From the IMG/VR virus record IMGVR_UViG_3300009506_000047, positions 1-50,832 of that record: a stretch of 50,832 nucleotides of DNA; one strand, 5' to 3'. How positions within the stretch are numbered: position 1 is the stretch's first letter; each line of letters opens with the position of its first letter. Positions 4,682 through 40,138 of the stretch are shown here, piece by piece. The position numbers and the translations under genes are program-made. The notes below the pieces were generated by a model. The model saw nothing but the letters and a program-made list of their open reading frames with translations, was not told the DNA's origin and searched no databases. This DNA comes from a virus.

Positions 4682-6184
4682 TTATTCGCTGATTTTCTCT
4701 TTTATCACTTCCAATACTCTTTTGACTATATTGTTTATATCATATTTATCCTCTCCAGCCGCAGGGTAATAGGTATCATATAAAATTTGTAATCCATCAA
4801 CCAGAATTTCCTTATTATTTGGCTGACTATATAAACCGAAAATGCAATCACAATATGCCGCTTTTTTGTTGAGGTTAAATATATAAGAATATTGTTTCCA
4901 TTCCTGCGTTGCCACCACATATTGATTATCAAAATAATCAGTATTGTTGCCATAGTAGCGCAGACCCACGAACGCCACAGTGGGAACATCAGATTTGACC
5001 CAGAAACTAAGAATTATTCTTTTATTATTATCTGCAAGCAAATGAAAATCTTTTTCAAGGCGATACGATAAGCCGATGGTTTCACCTTTGGATTTTATTC
5101 TTGCAGATAAAGAGTCGAATCTGGCATCCTTATCTTGCTTTATCTGCCCATCACCGAACTGATTTAAAGCAATGGGCAACCCTTTTTCCCATACTTCCAA
5201 ATTTCCAGCAATAATGTTTTGTTTTTGCTTATTTTTGATCGGTGCTTTCTGTTGTCCTGAATTGCCCCAAATCCTGTCTATTTTGCCCTGTGGCGATATA
5301 TCCGGCTCCCTGGCATACATTACCCCATCCAGAGAAAGATATGAGCTTGCATCGCCACGCAACCCCCCTATATAACTATTCACAATATCGACTTGCCGGC
5401 AATTCATAACGGCTATATTCTCACTCATAGTTAAGCCACTGATTTTCACCATATTACAACCGGTTATATCTATGTCATTCCCCGGAGCTTCAATATGTAG
5501 CCCGGTCAATTCAACGGCTCCCACATGCCCCTTGATAACGATTGCTTTTTTCCTATTCCCTTCACAAATGCAATCCCGGACAATCATGCCGCCTTCGCCT
5601 TTTCGCTCTTCACTATAAATACCTGTGTCAAGGCATGAACGGAATTCACTGTTGATAATATGATTTGCATTATTGCCAACAATATCGGAAATGGCATATA
5701 TTCCAAATTGTGGCATTGGCGCGTTATTTGACCAGTATTGAGTATTGGTATAGCATCCATCTATTGTCATCCTCAGACAGCCATTCAGGAATATTCCTTT
5801 ATTCCCGCCTCGTAAGCCTACCCGGATTAATTTCATTCCCCCGCAGAAATTCAGAGTCAATAAATTGCCAGTTCCCGATAGATTGCAAAGCGTCAAATCT
5901 TTGACATAGCACCATTCAAAAATGCCTTCCCGCTTTTCAGGATTATATACAATCATATCAAATCCATTTCCCTGAATCACTGAGCCAGTTCCTTCCCCCC
6001 GAAAGGAAACCGGCTTAGTAATTTTCAGGGTAGCATTCAGGGTATATGTACCAACAGGGAAATATAGTTCGCCCTTGTACGGGCAGGCATCATAAGCTGC
6101 CTGGATGGATGGATAGTCCTGCACATTCAAGGCATAGCATGATATTGCAATCAAAAATAAGCTGATTATAAACATACCTCTCAT
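4682..6184 (-). CDS. Exported parallel beta-helix protein (depolymerase-like)
   Basis: Five hundred residues. The N-terminus is a typical signal peptide (MRGMF, hydrophobic core to about residue 15, possible cleavage after CYA at 18). Next comes a Pectate-lyase-3 style start (SIQAAYDAC...GELYFPVGTY) and a right-handed parallel beta-helix to about residue 310. A jelly-roll or carbohydrate-binding-like domain follows (about 325-470), ending in a short charged tail. Phage tail spikes share this fold and usually lack signal peptides. Export through the host Sec system would make it a periplasmic, surface or released glycan-degrading or binding enzyme. Active-site residues cannot be identified by eye. 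It follows the tail spike gene by 12 nt. Confidence 0.7.
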   Translation of the reverse strand: MRGMFIISLFLIAISCYALNVQDYPSIQAAYDACPYKGELYFPVGTYTLNATLKITKPVSFRGEGTGSVIQGNGFDMIVYNPEKREGIFEWCYVKDLTLCNLSGTGNLLTLNFCGGMKLIRVGLRGGNKGIFLNGCLRMTIDGCYTNTQYWSNNAPMPQFGIYAISDIVGNNANHIINSEFRSCLDTGIYSEERKGEGGMIVRDCICEGNRKKAIVIKGHVGAVELTGLHIEAPGNDIDITGCNMVKISGLTMSENIAVMNCRQVDIVNSYIGGLRGDASSYLSLDGVMYAREPDISPQGKIDRIWGNSGQQKAPIKNKQKQNIIAGNLEVWEKGLPIALNQFGDGQIKQDKDARFDSLSARIKSKGETIGLSYRLEKDFHLLADNNKRIILSFWVKSDVPTVAFVGLRYYGNNTDYFDNQYVVATQEWKQYSYIFNLNKKAAYCDCIFGLYSQPNNKEILVDGLQILYDTYYPAAGEDKYDINNIVKRVLEVIKEKISE

Positions 6185-6196
6185 AAGAATCCCCCT

Positions 6197-9100
6197 TTAT
6201 GGCGTATTCGTCATATCCAACCAACTGCCATCATAGAGATAAAGAATATGGTTTGTTGAGTCATATACAAGGGGAACGCGGCCTGTTTTGGTCGTTGGCG
6301 TTCCTGTAGGCGTTCCTGCACATGACGGAATATATAAAAAACCATCTGTGGCATCAGTAGCTATAGCGGCAGTACCTATAGCTACATTACCCAAATAATC
6401 TATATCCATTCGCTGAGTCAATACCGTTGGGGCCGCGTCTGTTCCTGTCCAAAAAGAAAGATTGGCCGGCACTCTGGTCGTGGCTATCGTGCCTCCACTA
6501 ATACCTTTTATTGCGGCTCCTGTGACATATCCTCCCGCGCCGGAATATCCACGAAATAACAAATTACCCAACTCATCACCGGTAGTTATTACAGTTGGTG
6601 AAGCTATCGTCCCTCTGGTCTTTTGCAAGTGAATTATTGTGGCTACAGTATCGGCACTGGCATGTTGTATGATCACTTCATTGCCTGACGGGGTAATACT
6701 TAAATCGCCATTACTATCAGTTTGAAAATCAGTATAGACACTTCCATCAGTATATGTCAATCTTAATTGTGGATTGCTGGCATCCAATACATCCAATCTT
6801 CTATCCGGGCCTGTCGTCCCTATGCCTACTTTGCTATTTGAATCTATCGTGAATTGCGTTGTTGCTGCCAATTTAATAGCGAAATTAAACGCGCCTGATG
6901 ATTGAGCATAGCATATCCCATAGCTTCCATCTGAATCGTCAAGAAAAAATGCAAGTCGGCGATTATTCCCGCCTTCAAAATTTTGTAACTGCAAGCCTAT
7001 AGCATCATCATTTGTTGTAGTTGAGATGAGATGCTTGACATCCAAATCGCTACTATCGCCGCCAAAATAGGGCATTGATATATTGCTTCCTGCGCCAATA
7101 TGCAAGATGCTATCCGGGGCTGTATTGTTTATACCCACCTTCCCCGTTTTATCAATTCGCATTCTTTCCGTCAAGACAGTCGGCGCTGCATCCGTTCCTG
7201 TCCAAAAACTCAAATGTGCTGGCACCCTGGTTGTCGCTATTGTCCCCTCGCTGATGCCCTTTATCGCCGCTCCTGTAACATATCCATCCGCACCAGAATA
7301 GCCGCGAAACAGCAGATTCCCTAACTCATCACCGGTTGTTATCACTGTAGGCGCGGTTATCGTTCCTCTGGTTTTTTGCATATCAATTTCTGCTGCTACC
7401 GCATCAGCACTTACCTGTTGTGAAATCAAACCGCGTGGGGTTGTTGAGCCAGTATTTATTCCCCATATCTCTGATGATTTTATTGCCGTTAAATCCCATA
7501 GCCAGATGTCATCAAGATAACATGATGCCGCTGTTTCTGCGGCCGAGAAATAAAAGCGTACTCTTGCTGTGGTTGTTGTACCCACATTTGATGATGGGAT
7601 TAAAATTAGTTTTTCGGTCCATGATGTTGTTGTGCCTAACGCTGTCGTTACATTTGTCCCGCCGGGTAAATACATTAAAGCGGTCGCCTGCGTTCCTGTA
7701 ATATGTTTGTGCTTGACGCTCAAGAGATAATCATGCCCAGGGATAAGTGGGACATCCGCGCTAAAACCATGACTGGCGGCGGCTACAACCGCCATTTTTA
7801 CGGCATAAATACCGGAATACTTTTCAGTATCTGAACAACCTGTGCCAGTCTGCTCGATAGTGCAGTCATCATCTCCGTAGATATTCCAATCATCAGCCAA
7901 CGTCCCGTTGATCCAGCGCTCAAAACCGCCATTTTTAATTAAATTATGCGCTGGCATACTGTCGGATAAGTTGAATCTAGTATCTACAGGGGCAGCAATA
8001 ACCGTTAACGGTTGCTTATACCCATTGGTAAAATTCTCGCTAATTTCATAATGCTCAACATACGTGCCAAACGCTGGCCCTATCAAAGTAATATTTCCCG
8101 AATTATCATGAACATACCAACCCACCCGATAAGGCGTACTATGGATAGAATTCTCGATTTCACAGGAGATGAATATATGCTCTGTAGAAGTTGTGCTTGC
8201 GCTTCCAATTTCAAACCCTGGATCGCAATTATAGACACCAGTATTCAGGAATACGTTCTTATTACCGCTTTCCAATACGATGCCTTGATACCAGGGCGGC
8301 CCTGCTCCGCTATATTGCCCATAAGCCGTAATATTCTGAAATACATTCCCTGAACTATCGACCAAATGAATAATAATTCCGTCAATGTCATATAGATATA
8401 AATCTTTGAATGTTGAAACACCGACTGTATCTAAATATATCGCCGGCCCGGCGTCTATATTTTCAATGTATAATCGCTCCAACTCACACGCCCTACAGTC
8501 TTGCGTTCCCGGTAGCATTGAGATGGCTGTATCTGCCAGATTGTTTCCATCTATTACCATATCGGCAATCCTGGCCCCATATTCCTGCGTTATTGTAATC
8601 ATAGTCATGCTGGCAGTGCCTGCCAGTAGAGTAGTAGCACCGACATCAGCATCTGAGAATCGCTTCATTCCGGCCCCGATGAGGTGTATATTGACATTAG
8701 CGGGTAAATCAAGCCCCGTATCGATTTTGAATTTACCAGCAGGAAATAATACAATACCACCGCCAGCGGCCTCAGCGGCATCAATCGCTGCTTGTATGGC
8801 TGCGTAAGAATCGCTTACACCTGTATCGTCTACAGTACCATAGGCGAAAATATTAAACACCTGACCGCCGGCATCGGCAACTGGCAAAAGCACCCTATCC
8901 CCTGTTGGAGTTATGGTCAAATTTCCGTCAGAATCTGTTTCAAAATCAGTATAGACAGAATTATCAGTATATGTTGCCCGTATTTGTGCTACTGATGTAT
9001 TAATTATGTCTAAAGGACGCCGGGGAGTATTCGATAAAATACCCACATAACCCGTTGAATCTTGCACAAAAATGCCAGTGTCGCCATCCTCCACAAGAAA

Positions 9101-9286
9101 CAACCCAGAGCTGCTTCTGGCACTTATCTTATCACCTAGAATGGCATTGCCGCTTCCTATGTCCCAATCTGCCGATAGCTCCACTGATCCATCTGAATGT
9201 ATGCGTAATTGCTGATCTGTTGCCATTGCATTCCAATCAGCCGAAAGCACCGGGTCGCCCGGTGCTTTCCCCGTAGTCCAAGCCAT
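6197..9286 (-). CDS. Tail spike/fibre, 1029 aa, beta-helix with repeats
   Basis: The N-terminal segment (residues 1-90, starting MAWTTGKAPGD) probably attaches to the tail. A pectate-lyase-superfamily start lies at about 145-205 (FNIFAYGTVDDTGVSDSYAA...), with a beta-helix to about 430. A carbohydrate-binding-like beta sandwich follows at about 447-600 (NLIKNGGFERW). The C-terminal half has two repeated fibre modules: 626-719 resembles 877-970, and 92-133 resembles 831-873. This is the most likely receptor-binding or polysaccharide-degrading virion protein. It is the first of two beta-helix plus sandwich proteins in a row. A perfect 12-bp hairpin (9243..9269) begins 17 nt after the start codon. 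Confidence 0.8.
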   Translation of the reverse strand: MAWTTGKAPGDPVLSADWNAMATDQQLRIHSDGSVELSADWDIGSGNAILGDKISARSSSGLFLVEDGDTGIFVQDSTGYVGILSNTPRRPLDIINTSVAQIRATYTDNSVYTDFETDSDGNLTITPTGDRVLLPVADAGGQVFNIFAYGTVDDTGVSDSYAAIQAAIDAAEAAGGGIVLFPAGKFKIDTGLDLPANVNIHLIGAGMKRFSDADVGATTLLAGTASMTMITITQEYGARIADMVIDGNNLADTAISMLPGTQDCRACELERLYIENIDAGPAIYLDTVGVSTFKDLYLYDIDGIIIHLVDSSGNVFQNITAYGQYSGAGPPWYQGIVLESGNKNVFLNTGVYNCDPGFEIGSASTTSTEHIFISCEIENSIHSTPYRVGWYVHDNSGNITLIGPAFGTYVEHYEISENFTNGYKQPLTVIAAPVDTRFNLSDSMPAHNLIKNGGFERWINGTLADDWNIYGDDDCTIEQTGTGCSDTEKYSGIYAVKMAVVAAASHGFSADVPLIPGHDYLLSVKHKHITGTQATALMYLPGGTNVTTALGTTTSWTEKLILIPSSNVGTTTTARVRFYFSAAETAASCYLDDIWLWDLTAIKSSEIWGINTGSTTPRGLISQQVSADAVAAEIDMQKTRGTITAPTVITTGDELGNLLFRGYSGADGYVTGAAIKGISEGTIATTRVPAHLSFWTGTDAAPTVLTERMRIDKTGKVGINNTAPDSILHIGAGSNISMPYFGGDSSDLDVKHLISTTTNDDAIGLQLQNFEGGNNRRLAFFLDDSDGSYGICYAQSSGAFNFAIKLAATTQFTIDSNSKVGIGTTGPDRRLDVLDASNPQLRLTYTDGSVYTDFQTDSNGDLSITPSGNEVIIQHASADTVATIIHLQKTRGTIASPTVITTGDELGNLLFRGYSGAGGYVTGAAIKGISGGTIATTRVPANLSFWTGTDAAPTVLTQRMDIDYLGNVAIGTAAIATDATDGFLYIPSCAGTPTGTPTTKTGRVPLVYDSTNHILYLYDGSWLDMTNTP
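9243..9269 (-). promoter_or_regulatory. Start-proximal coding hairpin
   Basis: GAAAGCACCGGG-CGA-CCCGGTGCTTTC, a perfect 12-bp stem with a 3-nt loop inside codons 6-15 of the spike gene. It is well placed to slow or gate ribosome loading on this mRNA. Confidence 0.55.
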
Positions 9287-9296
9287 AATATATCAC

Positions 9297-10313
9297 CTAT
9301 CTTTTTAATTCCAGTGTTCCCATATTCTGGATCGTATCCTTTTCAAGAGGATTCCACTTATGCTTTTTGGGGGCATATATACGCTGTCTTAATAGCCACT
9401 CTTTCATTAGTGGCGGATGTTCTATATTGTTGACTCTGATAATTGATTCTTCTTTCATCTCATCCATAATCGGGTTTTTTAACTGCCATCCCGGTTTATG
9501 CTGAACCGGCCCCCAAAAATCTACCAAATCACCATCCAAGTTTATTTTATAATCATCCAGAGATTCATAAGTACCATATAAAAGTCCCCAGAAATAATGC
9601 CATATCAATTTCATCTCCCACTTACGAGGGATGCTATACCATGAATAATGATGCACATAGATACTATCCCTCGATTTTATGTCTTGTATAATGTTGTCAG
9701 GATTGCAAAGAAAATTATCCGCCTGTATAGAATGGCCGCCATTGACTGTAATATAGCCAGCGCCATCGGACATGCCAGGCTTAGAGCCATAATATTTTGC
9801 GCCAGTCGCTGGATTGGTATTCTGTCGTTCTATTCTTGACTGGATCGGTATGCCATGGGTAATGTCGCCATTATTCAAGCTGAAACGCTCCTTCGTCCAG
9901 CCAGCACTTGACATTTTGAAGTGGGGACCATTAAACCAGTTGATTACCCCGGCCGCTATAATATTCGTCCTTGCTGGCCAGCTATCTTTAAGCATCTTAA
10001 TTTTCGGGTAATCCTCCGGCCGTATAATTTCGTCAGCATCCATTTGCAATAAAATATCAGACTGGCATTTACTTCGGGCCAACGCCTTAGTCGCTCCATC
10101 TATCGCAGGATTATTCAAGTCCAATTCTATTAGATGAACCTTTACCTTGCCGTCAATATCTGATAAGGCTTCATAAGTACCGTCCTTGAATCGCGGATCT
10201 GTCACCACGTGAAATTCATCAACCACTGGCAAGCATGACTTGATACTTTCTACAAAGGGAAGGTCAAAATCCACCCCCCTTAAAACATATCCATAAGCCC
10301 CTATCGTTTTCAT
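9297..10313 (-). CDS. Glycosyltransferase, GT2-like, 338 aa
   Basis: The N-terminal Rossmann-like half contains VDEFHVVTDPRF and then DILLQMDADEIIRPEDYPK, the hydrophobic-DxD pattern (DAD) used by GT-A transferases to bind a metal and nucleotide sugar. A tryptophan and tyrosine-rich C-terminal half follows. It is probably cytoplasmic. It is the last gene of a six-gene glycan cassette whose members overlap or nearly touch, and it directly precedes the tail spike gene. Donor and acceptor are unknown. ATG with SD AAAGGAGGCAAA. Confidence 0.75.
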   Translation of the reverse strand: MKTIGAYGYVLRGVDFDLPFVESIKSCLPVVDEFHVVTDPRFKDGTYEALSDIDGKVKVHLIELDLNNPAIDGATKALARSKCQSDILLQMDADEIIRPEDYPKIKMLKDSWPARTNIIAAGVINWFNGPHFKMSSAGWTKERFSLNNGDITHGIPIQSRIERQNTNPATGAKYYGSKPGMSDGAGYITVNGGHSIQADNFLCNPDNIIQDIKSRDSIYVHHYSWYSIPRKWEMKLIWHYFWGLLYGTYESLDDYKINLDGDLVDFWGPVQHKPGWQLKNPIMDEMKEESIIRVNNIEHPPLMKEWLLRQRIYAPKKHKWNPLEKDTIQNMGTLELKR

Positions 10314-10326
10314 TTTGCCTCCTTTT

Positions 10327-11292
10327 TTAATTTATCCCCAAATCGCGGCAATGATAAATATCTTCTGACAATAGCATCTCCATGATGATTGGATTTAGCG
10401 ACATCCCCATAATATCTCCGCCGCAATATCCTCGCTTGAAGCGGAGAAAGTACCATAACGATTTCTTCTGTAACCAGTTACGCTTTTCTGTATATTTAAA
10501 TAATTTAGATGGATGATAGATATAGAAAAACGTCCAGAACCATTTACTGATTGCCCTGTCTTCTTCATCTGAATATTGCACCATCCATTTAATGAAAGCT
10601 TCTGTTAAATCGCCATTTATCAGGCGTGATAATATTGCCTTGCTTCGCCTGATATTATTCCCCCTACAGTGATCCATTAGTTCTTGCGCTTCTGGTAATG
10701 TATAGCCTTGTCCCTCTGGATTAATGTAGCCATGAATGCAATCATTGATAATGAATCCATCGGTAGTCTTTATATGTAAATATGGGTACGGTGTCCTAAT
10801 AGTATTCCAGCCACCATTCACAAAGCCCCTATGCGGCGTCCCTGACATCTTGGTGCCTACTATATTCTTGAATAGCCAATCTTTATAGAATCTTTCTTTG
10901 CCTTCTTGCGTATGCTTGATAAAATCATCTACCGATTCCATGAGATGACCGTCAATATATGGCAAGCATGGAATACTAACTCTGTTATGAATGCCAAATG
11001 TTAATTCTGGTAAATGTTCCAATAAAGCAATGGAGGGAATTTCATCATCATCTTGCAATAGAATCCACTCATCTTTTTTGGCTCTATTTAGTAAAAAGTT
11101 ATCCTGCGCCGAATAGTCTTCATCCCATTTCCGATAATAATACTCTACGCCATAAGAGCGGCATATATCTTTGGTATTATCATCCGATCCGCCATCACAA
11201 ACCCGGATATTATCCACATAAGGCTTGGCCGCGTTAATTAATGTCAGCAATTCTTTTGCTCTGTTTTGTGTTATCACGTGAAGACTAATCAT
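10327..11292 (-). CDS. Family 2 glycosyltransferase, 321 aa
   Basis: Opens MISLHVITQNRAKELLTLIN, continues with VCDGGSDDNTKDICRSYG, and has DEWILLQDDDEIPS as the DxD metal site (about residues 75-88). This is the usual GT2 catalytic core in about the first 110 residues. The remainder is a large aromatic-rich acceptor region. Cytoplasmic, no membrane helices. Overlaps the methyltransferase gene by 8 nt, so the two are translated together. Confidence 0.85.
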   Translation of the reverse strand: MISLHVITQNRAKELLTLINAAKPYVDNIRVCDGGSDDNTKDICRSYGVEYYYRKWDEDYSAQDNFLLNRAKKDEWILLQDDDEIPSIALLEHLPELTFGIHNRVSIPCLPYIDGHLMESVDDFIKHTQEGKERFYKDWLFKNIVGTKMSGTPHRGFVNGGWNTIRTPYPYLHIKTTDGFIINDCIHGYINPEGQGYTLPEAQELMDHCRGNNIRRSKAILSRLINGDLTEAFIKWMVQYSDEEDRAISKWFWTFFYIYHPSKLFKYTEKRNWLQKKSLWYFLRFKRGYCGGDIMGMSLNPIIMEMLLSEDIYHCRDLGIN

Positions 11293-12034
11293 CTGGCCAT
11301 TCCTTTATTTTGCGGAAAATATAGCTACTGCGCTTATATTCCATCAATTCGAATCCAAAATCCGCTATCCGCGCAACCCACCATGCCGCAGTCCCGGCAC
11401 TCCCTCTACCATCACAATAAAATGGGGTGAATTCAGTTTTATGCGGCATCTCCTGTGGGAAACTATTGATTGAATTAAAAGTCATCTCGTTTATCATATA
11501 GAACAATCCAGCCGGAGCAAGGGCATCATATATTGCCTCAAAGATTCTATCCTGCTTCCACCACGAATTGTGCTGGATAACAGTATGGGAATAGACTATA
11601 TCCAAAGGACATTCATCAAGCTCATTGACTCTACTAGCTGACAAAACATAAAATTTATTCTCTGGCATCCGCTCTTTACATACTGCTATAGCTCCGGGCG
11701 CATGATCTATGCCGATTATATCCAAATTCATGTTGAAATGCTTTGACATAGCATTCCAGATCATACAGAGTCTACCACCGCCACAGCCAAGTTCTGCGAT
11801 CTTACCATTCTCAATGATATTATAACGTTTACATAGTTCATATAATTCTGCAATAGTTGACATATTGCCTGTGTCGCTATTCTCAAATCCTGCTTTCGGA
11901 TTTAATTTGGCTTGCTCTGTTGTTGCTCTCGTAGTATCATTTAACAGAACGTCAGACTGGTTCCAGTATTCCGGCTTATCCTGGATTTCATCATGTATAG
12001 GTATATGGCTGATTAGTTCTTTAGAGATTTGCAT
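11285..12034 (-). CDS. SAM-dependent class I methyltransferase, 249 aa
   Basis: Motif I is IAELGCGGGRLCMIW (about residues 79-93), motif II acid is IIGIDHAPGAIAVC, and motif IV region is CPLDIVYSHTVIQH. Motif post-I spacing is normal. This is a class I Rossmann methyltransferase of the type found in O-antigen and glycan clusters, where it caps or modifies sugars. Substrate cannot be read from sequence. Overlaps both neighbours (14 and 8 nt). Confidence 0.8.
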   Translation of the reverse strand: MQISKELISHIPIHDEIQDKPEYWNQSDVLLNDTTRATTEQAKLNPKAGFENSDTGNMSTIAELYELCKRYNIIENGKIAELGCGGGRLCMIWNAMSKHFNMNLDIIGIDHAPGAIAVCKERMPENKFYVLSASRVNELDECPLDIVYSHTVIQHNSWWKQDRIFEAIYDALAPAGLFYMINEMTFNSINSFPQEMPHKTEFTPFYCDGRGSAGTAAWWVARIADFGFELMEYKRSSYIFRKIKEWPDD

Positions 12035-12908
12035 TATCGCACCTTATCAATTCATTATATTGGGGTACCTTATCAAAAGCATTATAATCCCATTTTTTGT
12101 TTAGATATTCCTGACTTTCTATCGGATTCTGGTAAATTGAATTATTTCTATCATCATGCTCAATATGGTAGCTTATTATATCGCCAATACAGACAAGCGA
12201 TAAGCCGTTTTTTAGGCAAATCATCCCATACTCTGGTGCATTATATGCCCATCCGGTTACGTTATTATCCCACCTGGCAATCATTGCATTTTTATTTGTA
12301 ATCCAGATATTTCCATCGAAATGTATTGTCCAACCTTTAATTGGTTGTGGATCATTATAATAGGATGGATTATAAAAATATTCTCTTAATTCAAATCTTT
12401 GTCCAGTTGCTATGAATTTATCCGGGTCGCATTCCCCCATAAATCCAGCAATATCGTGGCGCCCTTCCCGGATATTTACCATATCAAATAAAGTCTTGCC
12501 ATTAACAAGGCCGCGCTTAATAATATGCGGCAATGGAAGCCTGTAATTAATATGCGATAATACCATATTTTCATATTGAGCCACCAGATTAGCACATCTT
12601 TCACAATAATCGTTATCGGCAATAATATCCACCGCGCCAAAGCAGATAAGTTCCTGGCTAGAATGATTTAATCCAATATTAAAAGCCTCGTGTAGTCGCA
12701 TTCGTTTTGGCAAATGTTGAAAATAATAATATTCTGTTTTATATTTCTGAGCCAATGCCCTGTGTTGTTTTGCCAATTCAGGATCAGACCCATCATCTAC
12801 TATAATGATTTGCTCAGGAACATGAGTCTGACTCTTAAGAAAATCAAGAACCATTTCTAAATGTTCCGGCCTATTCCATGTTGCTATTATATATGATATT
12901 GTCGGCAT
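12021..12908 (-). CDS. Family 2 glycosyltransferase, 295 aa
   Basis: The GT2 signature is at the N-terminus: PTISYIIATWNRPEHLEMVL, then QIIIVDDGSDPELAK. The acceptor half has a conserved-looking WDNNVTGWAYNAPEYGM segment typical of galactosyl- or N-acetylgalactosaminyl-type enzymes, though specificity is a guess. I chose the ATG at 12908; an in-frame TTG 18 nt upstream is less likely. The gene starts inside the 3' end of the epimerase gene (38-nt overlap). Confidence 0.85.
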   Translation of the reverse strand: MPTISYIIATWNRPEHLEMVLDFLKSQTHVPEQIIIVDDGSDPELAKQHRALAQKYKTEYYYFQHLPKRMRLHEAFNIGLNHSSQELICFGAVDIIADNDYCERCANLVAQYENMVLSHINYRLPLPHIIKRGLVNGKTLFDMVNIREGRHDIAGFMGECDPDKFIATGQRFELREYFYNPSYYNDPQPIKGWTIHFDGNIWITNKNAMIARWDNNVTGWAYNAPEYGMICLKNGLSLVCIGDIISYHIEHDDRNNSIYQNPIESQEYLNKKWDYNAFDKVPQYNELIRCDNANL

Positions 12909-13797
12909 TTTGCTTGAATGAATCAATTACTCGATTCACTCCCTCACTTAATGAAATCTTAGGATTTACCCCCAATAGATTTATCATCTTTGAAATATCA
13001 GGAATTTTTTTTAATGTCATTTTTCCAGGTAATGGTTTAAATATAGCATAATCAAGATAATTGACGCCCATCTTGTCGCCAATTATTTTGGCAAGCTGTT
13101 CAGTTTCAGTATATTCAGTCATTCCGATATTTATGATATCAAAGTTACTTAGATATATGGCTTTTTCCATTGCAATAACACCATCGTCAAGATTCATCCA
13201 GCATCTGCCGCTATTCTTGTGAATAATTATTGCCTGCCTTTTATACAAAGATTCAGCAAATCTGATTAAAGCTGATCTATGTTCCCCCCTATCTTCACTC
13301 TCATGATACATCATGAATAATCGCAGAATAATTGCGTCCAATCCATTGTTGATCTCATATCTAATTATTTGCTCAGCCAAATATTTAGATAACCCATAGC
13401 GATTATTAGGCATCGGAATCGTGGTGTCTTCGTTCATAATGCAATCTTGATTACCATATACTTCCGAAGTAGAGGCAAACAACAATTTAGCATCATACAT
13501 TTTGCATAGTTCTATAATATTATATGTTCCGGCTATATTTGTAGTGATGGCCAATGTTCCACTTTTTTCACATAATATTCTACTCACCTGGCCTGCCAAC
13601 AGGAAAACCACATCCGGTCGAGTTATCCAAAAGACCTTTGCTAAATCAATTGGAATATTAATATCTGCCTGAATGTAGTCAAAATCATCTTTCGCCTTAA
13701 TATCGGACTTATATATAATATGTCCCTTTTGCGCTAGATAAGGACATAAAACTCTGCCGACATTACCTTCCGATCCTATAACTAATATTTTAGTCAT
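12871..13797 (-). CDS. NAD-dependent sugar epimerase/dehydratase, 308 aa
   Basis: Extended short-chain dehydrogenase fold. The nucleotide-binding motif GSEGNVG is at residues 8-14. The catalytic triad region has STSEVYG (about 109-115) and the YGLSK motif (Tyr/Lys, about 133-137). The family interconverts NDP-sugars (for example UDP-glucose to UDP-galactose, or later steps of deoxysugar synthesis). Here it would supply a donor for the adjacent transferases. Its ATG overlaps the end of a broken small gene (ATGACTAA). Confidence 0.85.
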   Translation of the reverse strand: MTKILVIGSEGNVGRVLCPYLAQKGHIIYKSDIKAKDDFDYIQADINIPIDLAKVFWITRPDVVFLLAGQVSRILCEKSGTLAITTNIAGTYNIIELCKMYDAKLLFASTSEVYGNQDCIMNEDTTIPMPNNRYGLSKYLAEQIIRYEINNGLDAIILRLFMMYHESEDRGEHRSALIRFAESLYKRQAIIIHKNSGRCWMNLDDGVIAMEKAIYLSNFDIINIGMTEYTETEQLAKIIGDKMGVNYLDYAIFKPLPGKMTLKKIPDISKMINLLGVNPKISLSEGVNRVIDSFKQNADNIIYNSNME

Positions 13798-13886
13798 CTA
13801 TTCCCTCATAATCCTCATTCGTTCCCTGTATCAGATATACCCTCTTGTTTCCGAATTGCCCAATCACATATCCATCTTCCCTGATA
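13790..13886 (-). pseudogene. Second half of split small zinc-ribbon-like gene
   Basis: In the +1 frame relative to the preceding 32-residue gene, an open stretch reads AISIREDGYVIGQFGN followed by KRVYLIQGTNEDYEGIDD and then stops. It has no start codon near its beginning. Its stop overlaps the epimerase start exactly as real genes here do, suggesting it is coding. It joins naturally to the ICPKC end of the upstream frame, so one inserted or missing base, or recoding near CCCAAAA, would restore a protein of about 70 residues. Confidence 0.45.
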
Positions 13887-13985
13887 CTAATTGCATTTTG
13901 GGCATATTACTATGTCATCATTATCCAATAAATATTGTTTAAGTGAATGAGTGGTTAAAAATTGAATCAATTCTGGTGTAATCAT
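13887..13985 (-). CDS. Small CPKC protein, 32 aa (first half of split gene)
   Basis: MITPELIQFLTTHSLKQYLL...IVICPKCN. It starts with an ATGA overlap to the GT9 gene and has a GGAGACATT ribosome site. The C-terminal CPKC looks like the first knuckle of a zinc ribbon cut short by a TAG stop. See the neighbouring fragment at 13790..13886 for the probable continuation. Confidence 0.5.
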   Translation of the reverse strand: MITPELIQFLTTHSLKQYLLDNDDIVICPKCN

Positions 13986-15214
13986 AATGTCTCCTTTATT
14001 CTATCCATAACCATATCCGCCGTTATCCGCTTCATACAAATAAGCCGGTCTTTCTGGGTATCACAACAATCTAGTTGCCAGTCCCAACAAGGCGCGCATA
14101 AAGCCTGCCCTTCAATCGGATAGGTATTTTGGTAATATTTACTGTGCGCCCAGGCTCCAGTGGAACCAAAGAGCGGAAATACTTTGAGATTCTCAAGTCT
14201 AGCTCCAATATGCAACGCCGAGGTATCCACACACACAAGTATATGAGCCAATCCCAATATGGCTATATATTCCCGGATGTTTGTTTTGCAGGACAGGTTT
14301 ATAACGCCTCTGGGGGCTTTCATATAGGCATCTTTGGTATCTGTTGACATATATATGACTTTGTATCCGTCTTTTATAAATTTTTTGGCTAATTTATTCC
14401 AGTAAAACCATTGTCGGGGCTTGCCATTTGAATTCAATTGCAATACTGCTATGCGCTTATCAAAATTCCATTCTATCAGTTTTCTTGCCTGTATTATCTC
14501 CTCTGACGAGATCTGTAATTGCCTAATGGGGACCTCTGGAATATATTTCTCAGTCGCTTCATCATATGTTGATTTTATCTTGACCCCTAGCAAGTCAGCA
14601 AAGTTATCAGCTCTAGGCTTGATATATGCTATTTCTCCGAAGTCCACCTGATTTATCATGTTATAGACCTCAGTATATTGCCTTGCTACTATCGGAAGTG
14701 GCACTATTCCCTTCTTTGCATCATGTTCATATTTGGTATATAGAATCCTATTGACTAATCCCTGTTGACCGCAGAATAAGCTCGCAGCCTGGGGACTGGT
14801 CAAATAGGCTATATATTTATCAGGGAATTGTTGCCGATATTCCTCAAGCGCAAACCATGACATGAGGACATCGCCCAGGCCCTTGAACCGCGCAAAGAGA
14901 ACTTGTATTTGTCCTTCCTGTGGGTATTCATTTGGCAATCCCCAAAGCCCCCCGGTCTGGACTGCAATACCCTGCACTCGCTCCTTATGTTTATATGATT
15001 TATCTGTACCGATAGGATTATTCTCAGCATCAAAAACAATAATATCATGGTTTGTATGTATGTTTGACATTAATTCTCGCGGAACATGCCATACAATCAT
15101 CCCGGGACGTAATTGGGAGAATCGTCTTGCTCGTCCCTGATAATCATGGATTTCCTTGATTCGGTTTGTTTTGCCTTCGTAAACTATTGAAATCATTTTA
15201 ATATGTCTGCTCAT
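13982..15214 (-). CDS. Family 9 glycosyltransferase (heptosyltransferase-like), 410 aa
   Basis: An N-terminal extension of about 100 residues precedes the family core. The core opens with IQVLFARFKGLGDVLMSWFA, the loop that in heptosyltransferases contacts the acceptor. It ends with the sugar-nucleotide motif LVCVDTSALHIGARLENLKV then FPLFGST (about 340-365). A cysteine cluster (CAPCW...DCC) follows. GT9 enzymes add heptose or related sugars to lipopolysaccharide inner core; a different acceptor is possible in a phage. An alternative ATG lies 18 nt downstream. Overlaps the previous gene by 17 nt. First gene of the glycan cassette. Confidence 0.85.
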   Translation of the reverse strand: MSRHIKMISIVYEGKTNRIKEIHDYQGRARRFSQLRPGMIVWHVPRELMSNIHTNHDIIVFDAENNPIGTDKSYKHKERVQGIAVQTGGLWGLPNEYPQEGQIQVLFARFKGLGDVLMSWFALEEYRQQFPDKYIAYLTSPQAASLFCGQQGLVNRILYTKYEHDAKKGIVPLPIVARQYTEVYNMINQVDFGEIAYIKPRADNFADLLGVKIKSTYDEATEKYIPEVPIRQLQISSEEIIQARKLIEWNFDKRIAVLQLNSNGKPRQWFYWNKLAKKFIKDGYKVIYMSTDTKDAYMKAPRGVINLSCKTNIREYIAILGLAHILVCVDTSALHIGARLENLKVFPLFGSTGAWAHSKYYQNTYPIEGQALCAPCWDWQLDCCDTQKDRLICMKRITADMVMDRIKETL

Positions 15215-15629
15215 CCATCATTGCTGTTGAGGGTAAAAACCCACTGCCAAATAAAATATAAGCAATAGCAATACGCCAATCATTTCCTCCAGACCAAGCA
15301 TGATATTGAATTCTACATCCATAGCCTGTTTCTGAATCATAAGGCACTATATCTCCGTTATCATCTACCTGAATACGACAATCTACATAATAACAACGTG
15401 TACCGTATTCCGCTTCGCTATCAAAAGCGCAATATATCCATGACAAACCGGATACTATAGGAAAATCTACATCTATACCAACATATTGGTCATCCGGCCA
15501 ATCATGTGATGTTCCGGTATCCGTTACATTTTCAATCCAGACTCTTCCAGTATATGCTATGTTGATATGATGCGCGAATGGATCCCGGATATGCGATTCT
15601 AAATCTGTAGCTTGTCTTATATCTCTCAT
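15198..15629 (-). CDS. Hypothetical tail-associated protein, 143 aa
   Basis: I do not recognise the family. The sequence is rich in aspartate, tyrosine and tryptophan, lacks membrane helices, and ends with a glycine-rich segment and MMDEQTY. Overlaps the end of the baseplate hub gene by 4 nt, so it is probably a virion protein of the tail tip or a chaperone for it. Sits at the border between tail genes and the glycan cassette. Confidence 0.65.
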   Translation of the reverse strand: MRDIRQATDLESHIRDPFAHHINIAYTGRVWIENVTDTGTSHDWPDDQYVGIDVDFPIVSGLSWIYCAFDSEAEYGTRCYYVDCRIQVDDNGDIVPYDSETGYGCRIQYHAWSGGNDWRIAIAYILFGSGFLPSTAMMDEQTY

Positions 15630-16864
15630 GATGCTAATTCAAAAGCCGCTGGCTTCCTTCCTACAATATTAGTTGTTCCTTCTGCTGGATTAAGTATTAT
15701 TGATTCACACACAAACGTTTCATCTGATAGCTCTGTTTTGCCCTCTGTGACAGTAAAGAGTCGGCCTGGACGCACTATATACCCAATTGCGGTAGTCTTT
15801 GTCCTAATGAGCATATTAGGCACATTTATAATGCTGATAATATCACTGGCAAATTGTGTTGCGCTGGCATCGCTTCCGTCATTATCATGCCATATTGAAC
15901 GGGAATCGAATAATCTGTCCCTATTGCCATAATTATCGTAGCTTCCAGCCGATACCCCGGCATTTGTCCATTTTCCATTCATCCATTGGAAACGGGAATT
16001 GACCGTCACTTTATTATATAATTTATCGGCATCAATTTCCATTGCAAAATCAAGCATATTAGAATGATCCAATGTGGCGTAATCGGCTTCAAAATCATGT
16101 TTTAGATGAAAGTGAAGCCTTCCAAGTTCATCAATGCCTATATATAGATTAGAATAATCCGCTATTTGCGCTAAGATGTCCCGTATCGTTCCCCCAGATT
16201 CGGAAAAACTCAAGGAATATCCTAAATTATCACAATCCACCCAAGCAGTTGCCCATGAAGCATAATCTATATCTGGATTCCCTGGGGCTGCCAGGCCATC
16301 CAATGTTGAATAAGCTGTAATTGTATTCCATATCAAATCAAGTGGATTCTGCCGCCTAAATGCGGACCAGTCTGATTCGCTATATGATGAATATACTGCA
16401 CTTCGATTGTGCGGCTTGCCTACTGGATTATCCTGCGTCCCTACTCTAGTATTTAACAATTCCGTTAATTTGTCAACTAAATATAGCGTTACCGTATCAT
16501 TGGAAAATATTACTTTCCTCACAATACCAGTATATAACAATTGGGAATCATCAGCCCCGGCAAGAGAACAATATAGGGAGACTATCGAGGAAAAAGCATC
16601 TTCCTGATCAACTGCATCCCGGAAAATTGACCAATCTGAGCTATCATGCACAACTAATGTCGCGGAGCCGGGTTGTAATAAGGTGGGGATATTGATTGAG
16701 TCAACACGAATTAAATCACTTTTTGTGGAGCCTTCAAAAGTATAATAAAGATCAAAGGTCACATGCGAACTACTCAGAGTATCTATATAATCATCTGAGC
16801 CTGTTTCATCAAATAATAGAGTATCAAAGACACCAAAATCAAATCCATATCCAGTAAATGGCAT
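15626..16864 (-). CDS. Baseplate hub-like tail protein, 412 aa
   Basis: After an N-terminal tail-tube-like beta domain, the middle carries the pattern of gpD/gp27-type hub proteins (ILAQIADYSNLYIGIDELGRLHFH, then LDFAMEIDADKLYNKVTVNSR, about 225-300). The C-terminal domain has GRLFTVTEGKTELSDETFVCESI. Such proteins form the ring that closes the tail tube and holds the spikes. Located directly after tape measure and a short tail protein, which is the usual order. Confidence 0.65.
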   Translation of the reverse strand: MPFTGYGFDFGVFDTLLFDETGSDDYIDTLSSSHVTFDLYYTFEGSTKSDLIRVDSINIPTLLQPGSATLVVHDSSDWSIFRDAVDQEDAFSSIVSLYCSLAGADDSQLLYTGIVRKVIFSNDTVTLYLVDKLTELLNTRVGTQDNPVGKPHNRSAVYSSYSESDWSAFRRQNPLDLIWNTITAYSTLDGLAAPGNPDIDYASWATAWVDCDNLGYSLSFSESGGTIRDILAQIADYSNLYIGIDELGRLHFHLKHDFEADYATLDHSNMLDFAMEIDADKLYNKVTVNSRFQWMNGKWTNAGVSAGSYDNYGNRDRLFDSRSIWHDNDGSDASATQFASDIISIINVPNMLIRTKTTAIGYIVRPGRLFTVTEGKTELSDETFVCESIILNPAEGTTNIVGRKPAAFELAS

Positions 16865-17241: not shown

Positions 17242-19803
17242 CTACATAGTATAACCTGATGCCCTAGCCTCATTTAATGCTGGCAACAATTTAGTTTTAA
17301 TAAATTGACTGACTTCCTTTTCTCCTACTCTGGAAAGGTCGGCATAAGGCAAGGTAATATTTAGATTCTGTATATTTAGCCCTCCGCCACCCCGGATTTC
17401 AACTGGCACTTTACCGCTCTTCAATGGAATCACAGCCTCATCACTTTGTCCCTCGCCTATCATGGCAAGTGTCGGTTGCTTATATATCCCACCCCCGGCA
17501 AGTCGTGGAATCTTAAAACCGCCTTTGGCTATGCCACCATCAGCAAAAGCCGGGCCTAATTGAGCGACATCGAATAATCCTGCAAGCCCAAGTCCGGCCG
17601 CAGGATTGGCAACCCCAATTAGTTGCACCAAACTGCGAATGGCTTTTGACAATATCACATCTCTGATTAAGCTTTCCATTAATCGCTTAAATATCCCTTT
17701 GATTGAATCAGCAAAACTCCTAAAAGCATTTTCACTATCAGACAAACCATCAATCCACAAAGATACAAAATCATCTGAAACAGAATATAAAGAACTACTC
17801 AATGTTGATAGGGTTTCTGTAAATGCCTTTCCCCACTCTTTCGTTGTGCTTATAAGCTCATCCATGTCTGCATTAGCTTGATTTATCACCTTAAAGGTCT
17901 CGTTCCATTGATAAAGCCCGGTATTCATGCCCTTATCATTGCGTGGGATACCGCCCTTATCGGTTGCCCCTGTCAATCCTTTCCATATTGCATCAATTCC
18001 AGCTTTCTGTTTTTTGGCATCGGCTATGCGATCTTCGCGTTGCTTTCGACGCTCATTTTTCTCTCTGGTATAGGCATCTTGAAAAGCCCTGGATTGCTCA
18101 TCAAAGCTGGCAATAGCAAACCGATATTGTTCCTGCAAGCCCTCCTTAAATATCTTTAACTTTTTATCCTTTACATCCTTTTCTTGCTTGATTAAATCCT
18201 CTCCCTGCTTTTTGTAGGAAGCCGTCAAGTCATTAATCATTTCTTTATATGCCGCTTGCAATTCGACCTGTATAGCTTTTTTGCGTTCTGCTGTCGTTTC
18301 AGCATCGGCTAATTCTGCTTCCAGAGCTTCTTTAGTTGCCCTATATGTTTCCTGTATTGTTTTCTGCTCTCTGGCGTAATCACTGCCAGGCATACCCATT
18401 ATATTCGCCATTCTCAATCTGGATTGAGCGGATAATATATCTATAATGCCCTTTAGGTTAGATTTGTATTCATTAACGCTGTTGATATTTTCCGGTGTTG
18501 GCGGCCCGAAAACTTCACCTATTGCACCAGTTTTACCAATTAGACTCTGATATTCCTTATTAAGTAATAATAAGACATCATCTAATTTTCTATTATTAGT
18601 TAAATTTAATCCTGTCAGTTCATTTAAGCGTTTAAGATTGATACCCAAATCACCAAGTGATAAATTGGCTTTTTCAAATCCGGTGACCTGTGTGGGAAAC
18701 ATCCCTAACGCTTCTTTTAAATTATTTATGCGTTCCTTATCAACTTTTTCAATGATAATCTTCATATTTATTGGCTTGGATGCGGCATCGGCTATGCGTT
18801 TAATAGCAAATGTCAATGAAACAGCCGCCAATATTGCCGCCCCAATTGGTGTAGCTACTAGCCATGAAAGAGAAGAGCCAAGAACAGCAATCCCGGCCTT
18901 TACTTTGGATATTATTGCCGCTAGTCCTGCCAGCCCTGCAATTATTCCCGCAGTAGCGCCAATGCCAGCCGTTCCCCATGCTATCCATGATTTTGTTGTA
19001 TCTGATAAACTTTTGACTTTTTCTGTAATATCCGCCAAATCATTCAATATTTTAGCAAAAGTTGGCAAAAGTACATCGCCCAGTGTCGCCTTTAACTGGT
19101 ATAATGAATCATTAAAATTATCAATGGCATTTTGTGTGCCACCTGTGACGCGCGATTGTTTGGCTAACTGATCAGTCACTTTGGCGATTAACTGACTGGC
19201 GGTTACTCCACTTTTCGCTAAATCTTCCACAGGTGTATTATCGAATGCCAAAGCGATATATTTTCTAAGTGATGGCATGGATTCAGATATTTGTCGGATG
19301 TCCTGTCCCCAACCACTTGCCTTACCTCTTATCTGCGTTAATTGGACGATTACCCGCTCAAGCTCAGAACGTCCACCGCCGAATTTGACAATCTCATTTC
19401 CCCACTCCCGCATTATGCGCTTAGATTCTGCGAAACTAAAATTCAATGCTTGCAGGGAAGTTGCACCTTTTACCAATTCGGGAAGCCCTAAGCCCGGCAT
19501 CTTGGCAAGCTCAATCAATTCCTTGAATTGCCTGTTGGCTTCTTGCGTACTACCTGTTACAGCAATAAGGCTGAGTTTCATCTTTTCAATAGAGCCTGCC
19601 GCTCCGATAAATGACTTAGTTAATAAGCTCGCACCGGCGGCAACTGCACCAGAAAAAGCGGCAATGGCTAATCTGCCTGATTCTTTAGCACGCTTCTCTA
19701 TATTATCAAAGTGCTTGTCTAGACTTGAACGCATCTGATTTAGATTGCGCTGTAAGTCCTTTAGTTCTAGCTTGACTGTGACAAAGGCTTCTGCAAGTTC
19801 CAT
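17242..19803 (-). CDS. Tape measure protein, 853 aa
   Basis: Starts with a coiled coil (LKDLQRNLNQMRSSLDKHFD), then a hydrophobic segment and the TMP N-terminal domain (about 60-240, including RQISESMPSLRKYIALAFDN). A membrane-like helical region lies at about 265-335. Long charged coils follow (about 455-620), then a glycine-rich C-terminal part (FADGGIAKGGFKIPRLAGGG). By the usual rule of about 0.15 nm per residue the tail would be near 130 nm. It follows the tail chaperone genes directly (TAG then ATG). Confidence 0.9.
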   Translation of the reverse strand: MELAEAFVTVKLELKDLQRNLNQMRSSLDKHFDNIEKRAKESGRLAIAAFSGAVAAGASLLTKSFIGAAGSIEKMKLSLIAVTGSTQEANRQFKELIELAKMPGLGLPELVKGATSLQALNFSFAESKRIMREWGNEIVKFGGGRSELERVIVQLTQIRGKASGWGQDIRQISESMPSLRKYIALAFDNTPVEDLAKSGVTASQLIAKVTDQLAKQSRVTGGTQNAIDNFNDSLYQLKATLGDVLLPTFAKILNDLADITEKVKSLSDTTKSWIAWGTAGIGATAGIIAGLAGLAAIISKVKAGIAVLGSSLSWLVATPIGAAILAAVSLTFAIKRIADAASKPINMKIIIEKVDKERINNLKEALGMFPTQVTGFEKANLSLGDLGINLKRLNELTGLNLTNNRKLDDVLLLLNKEYQSLIGKTGAIGEVFGPPTPENINSVNEYKSNLKGIIDILSAQSRLRMANIMGMPGSDYAREQKTIQETYRATKEALEAELADAETTAERKKAIQVELQAAYKEMINDLTASYKKQGEDLIKQEKDVKDKKLKIFKEGLQEQYRFAIASFDEQSRAFQDAYTREKNERRKQREDRIADAKKQKAGIDAIWKGLTGATDKGGIPRNDKGMNTGLYQWNETFKVINQANADMDELISTTKEWGKAFTETLSTLSSSLYSVSDDFVSLWIDGLSDSENAFRSFADSIKGIFKRLMESLIRDVILSKAIRSLVQLIGVANPAAGLGLAGLFDVAQLGPAFADGGIAKGGFKIPRLAGGGIYKQPTLAMIGEGQSDEAVIPLKSGKVPVEIRGGGGLNIQNLNITLPYADLSRVGEKEVSQFIKTKLLPALNEARASGYTM

Positions 19804-20464: not shown

Positions 20465-21127
20465 CTACCATGCAATTGATTGAGTCTGAGTTTGCAATGG
20501 CCCAATACCGGTAAAAGTAATAGTCTCCTCAACTATTCCGTCAATTGGCACGCTGGTGCTTATTCCAGATACATAAGCGGGGCCTTCCAAAAAATAGGCG
20601 TTTGTCACATCGGGACTGGCATCATACCTGACGAAAAACCGCACCCAAACAACAGTTCCGAAATCATCATCTGGTGTTGTATCATCTGTTAGGTAATGGC
20701 GATCTGCTGTCGCTGTCCATGCCTTAATGCCTGCGATAAACGTTCTATAGCCGGCATCGCTGAAATCTGTCACATCCAGCATATCAACACCATTATCCAA
20801 TGTCCAATTATGAAAGCCTGCTATTTCGGTCCCAGGGCGTTTTTCATATACCCAGACTTTATCGCCTGCGGCTTCGGCAGTCAGTGAATCGCCGGCATCT
20901 AGTGTAAGCGTTCCATCAGCCCGGCTCGCAACGGTATAATCTCCATCATTAGATGTTGAGCCATAGACCGTAATCTCGGTGCTATCAGTAAAGCCATTTG
21001 CAAGCGTAAAGCCACTTGCAGTATCGGTAATCGTATCAGGATTACTATCTACAAAGGCAATAGTTAAGCCATAATTCAAAGCACCGGCTTTATATATAGC
21101 CCCTGTCGTTCCATTGAGTTCAGCCAT
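20465..21127 (-). CDS. Major tail tube protein B with inserted domain, 220 aa
   Basis: Shares with the upstream 121-residue protein the segments VDMLDxTDFxDxGYRTF and the C-terminal VSGIS...DGIVE...FTG pattern. It differs by an insertion at about residues 26-95 (VDSNPDTITDTASGF ... GDKVWVYEKR), a beta-rich module seen in other phage tail and head proteins. Probably a tube paralogue or a decorated tube variant. Ribosome site is close upstream of ATG. Confidence 0.75.
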   Translation of the reverse strand: MAELNGTTGAIYKAGALNYGLTIAFVDSNPDTITDTASGFTLANGFTDSTEITVYGSTSNDGDYTVASRADGTLTLDAGDSLTAEAAGDKVWVYEKRPGTEIAGFHNWTLDNGVDMLDVTDFSDAGYRTFIAGIKAWTATADRHYLTDDTTPDDDFGTVVWVRFFVRYDASPDVTNAYFLEGPAYVSGISTSVPIDGIVEETITFTGIGPLQTQTQSIAW

Positions 21128-21140
21128 TCAGATCACCGCC

Positions 21141-21506
21141 TTATGGTGTTGTATCTATAGTGATAGTCCCTGAGAATGTAAATGACGCAGTACATTCTAC
21201 TATACCATCAACGGCTGTGCTATAACTTATTCCACTTAGAAAAGCAGTACCGTTTAAGCCTAATCCAGTAGTAACCAATAGCGTCAATGTCGCACTGTCG
21301 CCCAATGCCGCTGTATTAGCGACATCCCAGTTATAGGTCACTGTTGCAGTGCCGCCTTTTAAGCCACCCTTAAAAGTTCTATATCCGCCATCGCCAAAAT
21401 CAGTAATATCAAGCATATCAACAGAAATATCGGATGTCCACTGCTTCGCGCTTGTCTGGAAATTTGTAAATGTTATTGATCCGCCATATCCTGCAAGTTC
21501 TGCCAT
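21141..21506 (-). CDS. Major tail tube protein A, 121 aa
   Basis: Compact beta protein starting MAELAGYGGSITFTNF, with DMLDITDFGDGGYRTFKGGL and DGIVECTASFTFSGTI. The size and position (after the tail terminator and before the chaperone) fit a minimal tail tube subunit. It is followed by a longer paralogue, so the tail may contain two kinds of tube subunits. Confidence 0.75.
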   Translation of the reverse strand: MAELAGYGGSITFTNFQTSAKQWTSDISVDMLDITDFGDGGYRTFKGGLKGGTATVTYNWDVANTAALGDSATLTLLVTTGLGLNGTAFLSGISYSTAVDGIVECTASFTFSGTITIDTTP

Positions 21507-21519
21507 TTTCTTTCACCTC

Positions 21520-21903
21520 TTAAACGGCTTTCATAATCTCATATTCTATTATGAACATGAAAGCCTCGTCTGTTTCATCCGGCAGTAATCGCTCCATACG
21601 CCGGATCATTTTATACTTCTTTGAGTCATCATCTGTTATCGTTGCATTGTCAAAAACTACTATAAATTTATCGTGAATATCATTAGCTTCCGCTGTATCA
21701 TCAGCAAAAATGCTGAATTGAAAGAAGCAATGGTCATAAGCCCAGTCAAAAGTAAAATCTGGCCTGCTACCCACTAGCGTAACTACACAATATGGCATAT
21801 CCGCTCTTGGCGGTGCTTTCGTGCTATATATCCTCGGTAGTGCCGCCTTAAGCGTTGCATTGGCGTTCCAGAGCGTCTTAATGCCTTCGAATATATCGGT
21901 CAT
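21520..21903 (-). CDS. Tail terminator-like protein, 127 aa
   Basis: LWNANATLKAALPRIYSTKAPPRADMPYCVV followed by a beta core (FFQFSIFADDTAEANDIHDK) resembles the DUF3168/tail-completion family that caps the tail tube. Overlaps the gp10-like gene by 4 nt and precedes the tube genes, the standard order. Confidence 0.7.
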   Translation of the reverse strand: MTDIFEGIKTLWNANATLKAALPRIYSTKAPPRADMPYCVVTLVGSRPDFTFDWAYDHCFFQFSIFADDTAEANDIHDKFIVVFDNATITDDDSKKYKMIRRMERLLPDETDEAFMFIIEYEIMKAV

Positions 21904-28284: not shown

Positions 28285-28701
28285 TTATTTTGTCCCGACC
28301 CTAATTGCAGGATTCACCGCCGGAATGTAAACACAAGCGCAATAGTCGCTTGGTTCACTCCACTCGCCATATATATCTTCAATTTTGCCCCTGATTCTTA
28401 CTTGGAAAACTCTTGCAACAAAATAACCTTGCTGTACCAAAGGAACATCTATCTCAAAAAAAACTTTCCGACTTTCGTCAATTTGAGATTCAAAAACTTG
28501 AACGCCAAACCTTGCATAAACTATAGGCTGTCCAACGATTCCAGCCACAATCTCTTGGCTTACGATAGGAATGTCAAGCCATTGCGGTTGAGAATTGGGG
28601 ACATAATCCGCAATTTGGCATTCATATACTGGCAAAATATCAAGAATATCTTGCGCCATCGCTGTCAACGGTATTAATAGGAAAAATAAAAGAACTATCA
28701 T
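28285..28701 (-). CDS. Exported protein, 138 aa
   Basis: A clear signal peptide (MIVLLFFLLIPLTAMAQ, cleavage after AMA) followed by a beta-rich domain with paired cysteines (ECQ, CAC). It resembles a fibronectin-III-like or chaperone-like exported domain but no family is recognised. Unusual inside a head gene cluster. It might be a superinfection-exclusion or host-envelope protein. Starts with an ATGA overlap. Confidence 0.6.
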   Translation of the reverse strand: MIVLLFFLLIPLTAMAQDILDILPVYECQIADYVPNSQPQWLDIPIVSQEIVAGIVGQPIVYARFGVQVFESQIDESRKVFFEIDVPLVQQGYFVARVFQVRIRGKIEDIYGEWSEPSDYCACVYIPAVNPAIRVGTK

Positions 28702-39812: not shown

Positions 39813-40138
39813 TTAATATGTGGATAATATTTTCTCAATAATCGCATTGATATTGAAATAGCTCTACTTTCGCCATTTCTTGGTAGCCAGTCAGCCAATG
39901 CCATGCGATTCAGTTCAATAAATTCATTCCATTTAGTTCCTGATACTAACGGCATAATCTTTCTTTTATCCAATGACGGCCCAAACTGTAAAGCCCCGCC
40001 ACATTGCCCATCTAAAAATACGCCAAAATGAATTTGACTATTATTAACCACTTTCCCACTATAATGCAATTTCCTGATAATTTCCCGCGCATCTTTAGAC
40101 GATATAGGCTTTATGATTATATCCTTAGCTGATGCCAT
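39740..40138 (-). CDS. Mom-like DNA-modification protein, N-terminal part
   Basis: Residues 1-116 ([81 protein letters not shown]) match the Mom family, a GNAT-like group that in phage Mu gives modified adenines which protect DNA from host nucleases. After SFAD the frame runs into an unrelated tail and stops, while the family continues with a CGDG motif that is present here in the -1 frame. Fused length would be 286 residues. Overlaps the ParB-like gene. Confidence 0.75.

Follow-up and report, generated by a model that had tools for sequence, protein, structure and literature searches.

The DNA analysed here, referred to as the window, is the IMG/VR virus record IMGVR_UViG_3300009506_000047 over its 50,832 bases; the ends of the record are classed as linear. 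A block of genes for glycan-modifying enzymes, the glycan cassette, is located on its minus strand at positions 9297 to 15214. The gene plan of this strand starts with a replication block on the right and proceeds via TerL, portal, a Mu-F-like protein, a protease-like protein, capsid, connectors and tail genes to the spike on the left. All six open reading frames (ORFs) assigned to enzymes in the original prediction were recovered at their positions (6 of 6), and five of the products scored above the Pfam cut-offs. The predicted content of a GT9-type glycosyltransferase, an SDR epimerase, three GT2-type transferases and a methyltransferase was borne out, the third GT2 remaining below the Pfam cut-off. 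From right to left, the cassette comprises:

13982..15214, minus strand: GT9-type glycosyltransferase, 410 amino acids (PF01075, 34.4 bits with a gathering cut-off of 22, E 1.9e-8)
13797..13990, minus strand: ORF of about 64 codons, function unassigned, seen in the sequence and filling the gap between the GT9 and epimerase genes (13798-13981)
12871..13797, minus strand: extended SDR epimerase/dehydratase of nucleoside diphosphate (NDP) sugars, 308 amino acids (PF01370, E 5.3e-32)
12021..12926, minus strand: GT2 glycosyltransferase (PF00535, E 6e-13) with a DDGS motif
11285..12034, minus strand: class I S-adenosylmethionine-dependent methyltransferase, 249 amino acids (PF13847, E 5e-11) with an ELGCGGG motif
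10327..11292, minus strand: GT2 glycosyltransferase, 321 amino acids (PF00535, E 2.4e-11) with a DDDE motif
9297..10313, minus strand: GT2-like glycosyltransferase, 338 amino acids (PF00535, below the cut-off with 21.0 of 23.3 bits) with a DADE motif

All six enzymes are intact and their catalytic motifs are present. The GT9-type protein consists of an additional N-terminal region of approximately 100 amino acids, the GT9 core with a GLGDV motif and a cysteine-rich C-terminus (CAPC...C...C). Its best relation in NCBIfam is to lipopolysaccharide (LPS) heptosyltransferases II and I (TIGR02195, 39.8 of 134.6 bits; second model, 24.2 of 185.3 bits). The NCBIfam equivalog cut-offs for LPS heptosyltransferase I/II were not reached, and the name heptosyltransferase is not claimed here, since the likeness is only distant. 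In the SDR enzyme, the nucleotide motif GSEGNVG and the catalytic motif YGLSK are kept (patterns GxxGxxG and YxxxK). It is related to PHROG 540, nucleotide-sugar epimerase (E 5.4e-50), and has a uridine diphosphate (UDP)-glucose 4-epimerase (4zrm) as top match in PDB, while none of the substrate-specific NCBIfam equivalog models reached its cut-off. For the first GT2, a TTG start is annotated; the ATG at 12908, resulting in a protein of 295 amino acids, is the likelier start. The third GT2 shares 23.5% identity over 234 amino acids with a Pfam-confirmed GT2 of another phage (L106:11969-12892 in G020). Alignment-free structure prediction gave no usable model, with a mean predicted local distance difference test score of 33.7 for the GT9-type protein and 29.1 for the third GT2.

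The six genes are co-directional with the tail genes and mostly translationally coupled. Neighbouring genes overlap or are separated by 13 nt at most, with the exception of one gap of 184 nt between the GT9 and epimerase genes. The overlap of the upstream gene with the GT9 gene is 17 nt, that of the epimerase with the first GT2 gene 56 nt (38 nt if the ATG at 12908 is used), and two further overlaps in the cassette are 14 and 8 nt long. Gaps of 13 and 10 nt carry the Shine-Dalgarno-like sequences AAAGGAGG and AGGTGAT. The tight packing first noticed thus stands as measured, except that the 184-nt gap holds the ORF of about 64 codons, which had been overlooked. This ORF overlaps the GT9 gene (ATGA) as well as the epimerase start (ATGACTAA) and contains a single frameshift near 13,940, because of which it was missing from the ORF list. 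An assembly error is one possible source of the frameshift, given that a Mom-family gene for DNA modification (39279-40138, adjoined by a ParB-like gene at 40125-40736) is also split, in this case into two overlapping frames.

Glycan cassettes in related phages

Scans of viral contigs with the single GT9, hub, methyltransferase and epimerase proteins yielded no close relative. The same holds for GT9 and TerL in the bacterial genome contigs scanned, and tblastn searches of the phage collection gave no match to GT9 or the third GT2. With a profile of six TerL sequences, more than 500 relatives were obtained, and the 80 best were retained. The 32 records larger than 20 kb that were searched for GT2 correspond to 31 distinct ones, G020 and G021 being 99.99% identical over 13.9 kb and counted once; G002 to G004 stem from an earlier scan with a single TerL sequence. 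Nine of the 32 records (eight distinct) matched in the GT2 search. The transferase-like genes of G003 and G004 are homologues of those in G002, with GT11, GT4 and methyltransferase domains in the case of G004. A glycan cassette co-directional with TerL was located inside the morphogenesis region in 10 of the 31 distinct records, a count that stands for presence in this region and not for enrichment, since contigs selected via TerL are biased towards the structural region. GT9 was not found in any of the 32 records. The nearest named phage with respect to TerL, THSA-485A (40%), has neither annotated glycan genes nor a PF00535 match. The cassettes of the relatives were located at the following junctions:

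Before TerS: G020
TerL/portal: G007 and G030
Capsid/head-tail adaptor: G016, G025, G002, G004 and G003 (the block of G003 runs towards the contig end)
Adaptor/gp10-like: G011
Tail terminator/tail tube: G009

Together with the hub/spike junction of the window, six kinds of junction are occupied. The original prediction placed the block exactly between hub and spike genes, which is true of the window; the position is not special, however, as relatives use other junctions. The cassettes of the relatives resemble that of the window in comprising co-directional genes for soluble transferases and methyltransferases, in several phages with sugar-nucleotide enzymes, within the morphogenesis region. 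They differ in junction, in the lack of GT9 and in the presence of GT4, GT11, MptE-like and UDP-glucose-dehydrogenase-like proteins, a deacetylase, a sulfotransferase and a cupin. Cassette swapping, raised early on as a matter for comparison, is in line with these unlike enzyme sets at other junctions in distant relatives. An intein-like region (LAGLIDADG, intein splicing domain) splits one transferase-like protein of the G020 cassette (L106:13037-14968), a homologue of L100:11393-12268.

The best syntenic relative is G009, whose gene order follows that of the window from TerL through the hub gene. Identities are 44% for TerL, 59% over 112 amino acids for the protease, 33% for the capsid and 33 to 47% for the connectors, with portal and Mu-F also collinear. 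Among the tail proteins, the tail terminator (29%, L102:5776-6252), the tail tube (38%, L102:10645-11043), a small tail protein (42%) and the hub-like protein (26% over 356 amino acids, E 1e-29, L102:15133-16821) have counterparts. G009 was the sole match in the scan with the small tail protein. In G009, a cassette of five genes (GT2, methyltransferase, GT4-like, UDP-glucose-dehydrogenase-like and GT4) is located between the genes assigned by PHROG to tail terminator and major tail protein. The corresponding junction of the window is empty:

21141..21903, minus strand: tail terminator (21520-21903) and tail tube (21141-21506) genes, 13 nt apart

Conversely, tail-side and radical-SAM-like genes but no transferase are found downstream of the hub gene in G009. 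Given these reciprocally occupied and empty sites, the window and G009 share one operon plan, with dissimilar cassettes placed at separate junctions. The G009 region downstream (L109:13363-16994) encodes two repeat-rich tail-side proteins (GYDS/STYNS-like) and, after them, a radical-SAM protein (PF04055 at E 6.7e-6, which is below the cut-off); the second protein after the repeats has CxxxCxxC and cysteine-rich C-terminal motifs. A radical-SAM/SPASM protein is also encoded in the G030 cassette (L104:11911-12705). Enzymatic modification of tail proteins is a possible role of the radical-SAM proteins near the G009 tail genes.

The cassette of G007 and G030 at the TerL/portal junction is homologous to that of G020 before TerS. 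Since homologous cassettes are thus located at different junctions, the sequences suggest that cassettes move between sites, the alternative being a rearrangement of the structural genes. A more far-reaching and still tentative idea is that, in phages of this TerL-related group, mobile glycosylation modules jump among the junctions of the morphogenesis region and vary in content, allowing a fast exchange of the virion glycotype. Perhaps the radical-SAM enzymes of G009 and G030 add other modifications of virion proteins to this repertoire. If true, such modules would be the protein-coat counterpart of tail-fibre swapping.

Virion proteins and other possible targets of the cassette

The cassette is best explained as a late-expressed, self-contained set of cytosolic enzymes which glycosylates one or several of the phage's own virion proteins; on grounds of sequence and analogy, we assign a probability of roughly 0.56 to this explanation. 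Judged by co-orientation and coupling, the cassette would be transcribed with the tail genes. The SDR enzyme, according to its family, would draw on a host precursor to make or convert a nucleotide sugar. One transferase may then attach the first sugar to an acceptor in the cytosol. The most plausible acceptor is a capsid or tail subunit, modified ahead of assembly or in its course; the remaining transferases may lengthen the glycan into a short oligosaccharide, with the methyltransferase capping or altering either the sugar or the protein. A decorated particle with changed adsorption, shielding or stability would be the outcome, and the cassette would represent an exchangeable module replaced by unlike enzyme sets at other junctions in related phages.

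In a simple hydropathy test, transmembrane (TM)-like segments were found in none of the six window enzymes and in only one of 74 cassette proteins from 11 phages, compared to all three Gtr proteins of P22. Among the families scanned, no recognisable flippase or membrane polymerase was found in any cassette. Enzymes of this kind fit a cytosolic transfer from NDP-sugars to soluble acceptors; virions assemble in the cytosol, where soluble enzymes and NDP-sugars are located. Virion modification is favoured by the position in the late operon, the soluble enzymes, the absence of lipid-linked machinery, the recurrence in relatives and the precedent of phage Corndog. For this phage, virion modification is what we infer from co-location. 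To our knowledge, virion glycosylation has been proven in a few phages only.

In Corndog, genes for an O-methyltransferase, two glycosyltransferases and a protein similar to a GlcNAc transferase are located between portal and capsid protease, and the products were detected in infected cells (PMC4351075). According to PMC12363180, which cites Freeman 2023, capsid glycosylation in Corndog depends on gp38 as an essential factor, and glycosylated proteins are present in Che8, Corndog and Myrna. Corndog gp35 to gp38 (cluster O) resemble the window cassette in combining a methyltransferase with glycosyltransferases on the same strand, nested in the virion structural operon. The tested features shared are this placement and the soluble nature of the enzymes, the latter judged by hydropathy only, and the two sets are likened by gene content and not by sequence. 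The Corndog set differs in its location at portal and protease instead of hub and spike, in that neither a GT9 nor an SDR epimerase is reported for it, and in its host, Mycobacterium. Single glycosyltransferases in a structural module, in contrast to the multi-enzyme cassette of the window, are known from Gratiaviridae (portal/capsid; PMC8008677) and from gp41 of Cellulophaga phage phi18:1 (PMC11946311). The closest known kind for the window cassette is the Corndog-type virion-modification genes; the GT9 and SDR set at a tail junction and the exchange suggested across junctions in relatives set it apart. If such cassettes modify virions, coat glycosylation would be widespread and exchangeable among uncultivated phages of siphovirus-like type, and would bear on how particles adsorb, how stable they are and how they are recognised by immune systems.

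Several observations weigh against glycosylation of the virion. The classical role of GT9 enzymes is that of LPS heptosyltransferases, in agreement with a target in the envelope. For the glycosyltransferase between portal and capsid genes in Gratiaviridae, a modification of the host capsule was proposed by the authors (PMC8008677). The relatives were found via TerL, so that their contigs, many of them fragments, are centred on structural genes and cassette placement is biased. In addition, one small gene of the block is frameshifted.

Remodelling of the host envelope was offered in the original prediction on a par with virion glycosylation; comparative evidence now favours the virion, and the envelope is retained as main rival, although we consider it rather unlikely. 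Here, sugars on the LPS core, capsule precursors or teichoic acids would be added or changed late in infection, which would spare progeny from being trapped on debris or close the cell to superinfection. The distant resemblance of the GT9 core to LPS heptosyltransferases agrees with this, as do the published view on Gratiaviridae and the neighbouring spike and secreted-looking beta-helix protein, both of which could act on surface glycans. A GT9 enzyme can also work on the LPS core as a peripheral membrane enzyme, which keeps an envelope target in consideration. On the other hand, enzymes made alongside tail genes would act late, and the block contains no membrane transferase, flippase, polyprenyl-phosphate transferase, polymerase or ligase, unlike gtrABC of P22. 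The P22 operon is similar in that phage glycosyltransferase genes adjoin a tail-spike gene, but it encodes TM-like Gtr proteins, is oriented opposite to the spike gene, has its own promoter and lies beside attP. Machinery for Gtr-type serotype conversion (GtrA flippase, GtrB polyprenyl glucosyltransferase, integral-membrane Gtr) was not found above threshold in the Pfam and PHROG scans, and serotype conversion of a lysogen is less likely because none of the proteins examined was identified as an integrase.

It is improbable that the cassette consists of host sugar genes carried along as a passenger island, without a selected role and in partial decay. The frameshifted ORF would agree with decay, and the G+C content of the epimerase and first GT2 genes is 34 to 36% compared to a mean of 41% for the other genes. 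Six intact, tightly coupled enzyme genes with catalytic motifs and the recurrence of similar cassettes in related phages argue against it, and assembly error is a real possibility for the frameshift. Glycosylation of DNA bases as a protection against restriction is known in principle, as transferases that glycosylate DNA are encoded by phages (Pyle 2024, as cited by PMC12619734), but it was rejected as very improbable: no enzyme for hydroxymethylated-base synthesis, DNA glycosylation or other partner in base modification was found among the proteins scanned (some small ORFs lay outside the scan), the Mom-type gene is separate and far from the cassette, and the cassette is located with the tail genes.

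Neighbouring tail genes and further observations

The tape measure gene (17242-19803, PF20155) is followed by the genes flanking the cassette:

15626..16864, minus strand: hub/baseplate-like tail protein (PF24032 YQBQ, E 0.0018, below cut-off)
15198..15629, minus strand: protein of 143 amino acids, function unassigned, between hub and cassette; its gene ends inside the GT9 start
6197..9286, minus strand: tail spike/fibre with right-handed beta-helix (PF12708, E 8e-10; PF13229 Beta_helix, E 6e-7)
4682..6184, minus strand: beta-helix and carbohydrate-binding-module-like protein (PF12708, E 0.0021; CBM_4_9, E 0.0027, both below cut-off)

The protein of 143 amino acids had no family match in the Pfam or PHROG scans. 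For the 6197-9286 product, PHROG matches to tail fiber (2.8e-24) and tail spike (1.6e-9) make a beta-helix tail spike credible from its sequence. Its C-terminal part contains a direct repeat of 299 nt, the copies of which are 73% identical and 753 nt apart, and resembles tail-fibre regions of cyanophages. The protein encoded at 4682-6184 has a hydrophobic, signal-peptide-like N-terminus (2.13 on the Kyte-Doolittle scale). Because of this start and of carbohydrate domains matched only below threshold, export is more probable for it than assembly in the cytoplasm. Of the two carbohydrate-active beta-helix neighbours initially proposed, the spike is thus supported, whereas the second has only sub-cut-off matches and looks secreted. 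The accompanying idea of a strategy in which one glycan is made and another broken found no direct support. A signal-peptide-like N-terminus, unusual in virion proteins, is also present in the product of 28285-28701 within the structural region. In the relative G002 (L012:4589-10234), spike-region proteins have signal-peptide-like starts as well, one of them matching PF12708.

Two neighbouring genes of the window, 20465-21127 and 21141-21506, encode tail-tube-like proteins, both of them similar to the one tail tube that G009 has; an inserted domain is present in the longer protein. The product of 47941-48765, which had no Pfam match, contains many repeats of the SVWASVGDSV type and shares 53% identity over 168 amino acids with a homologue in G030 (L081:3662-4453).

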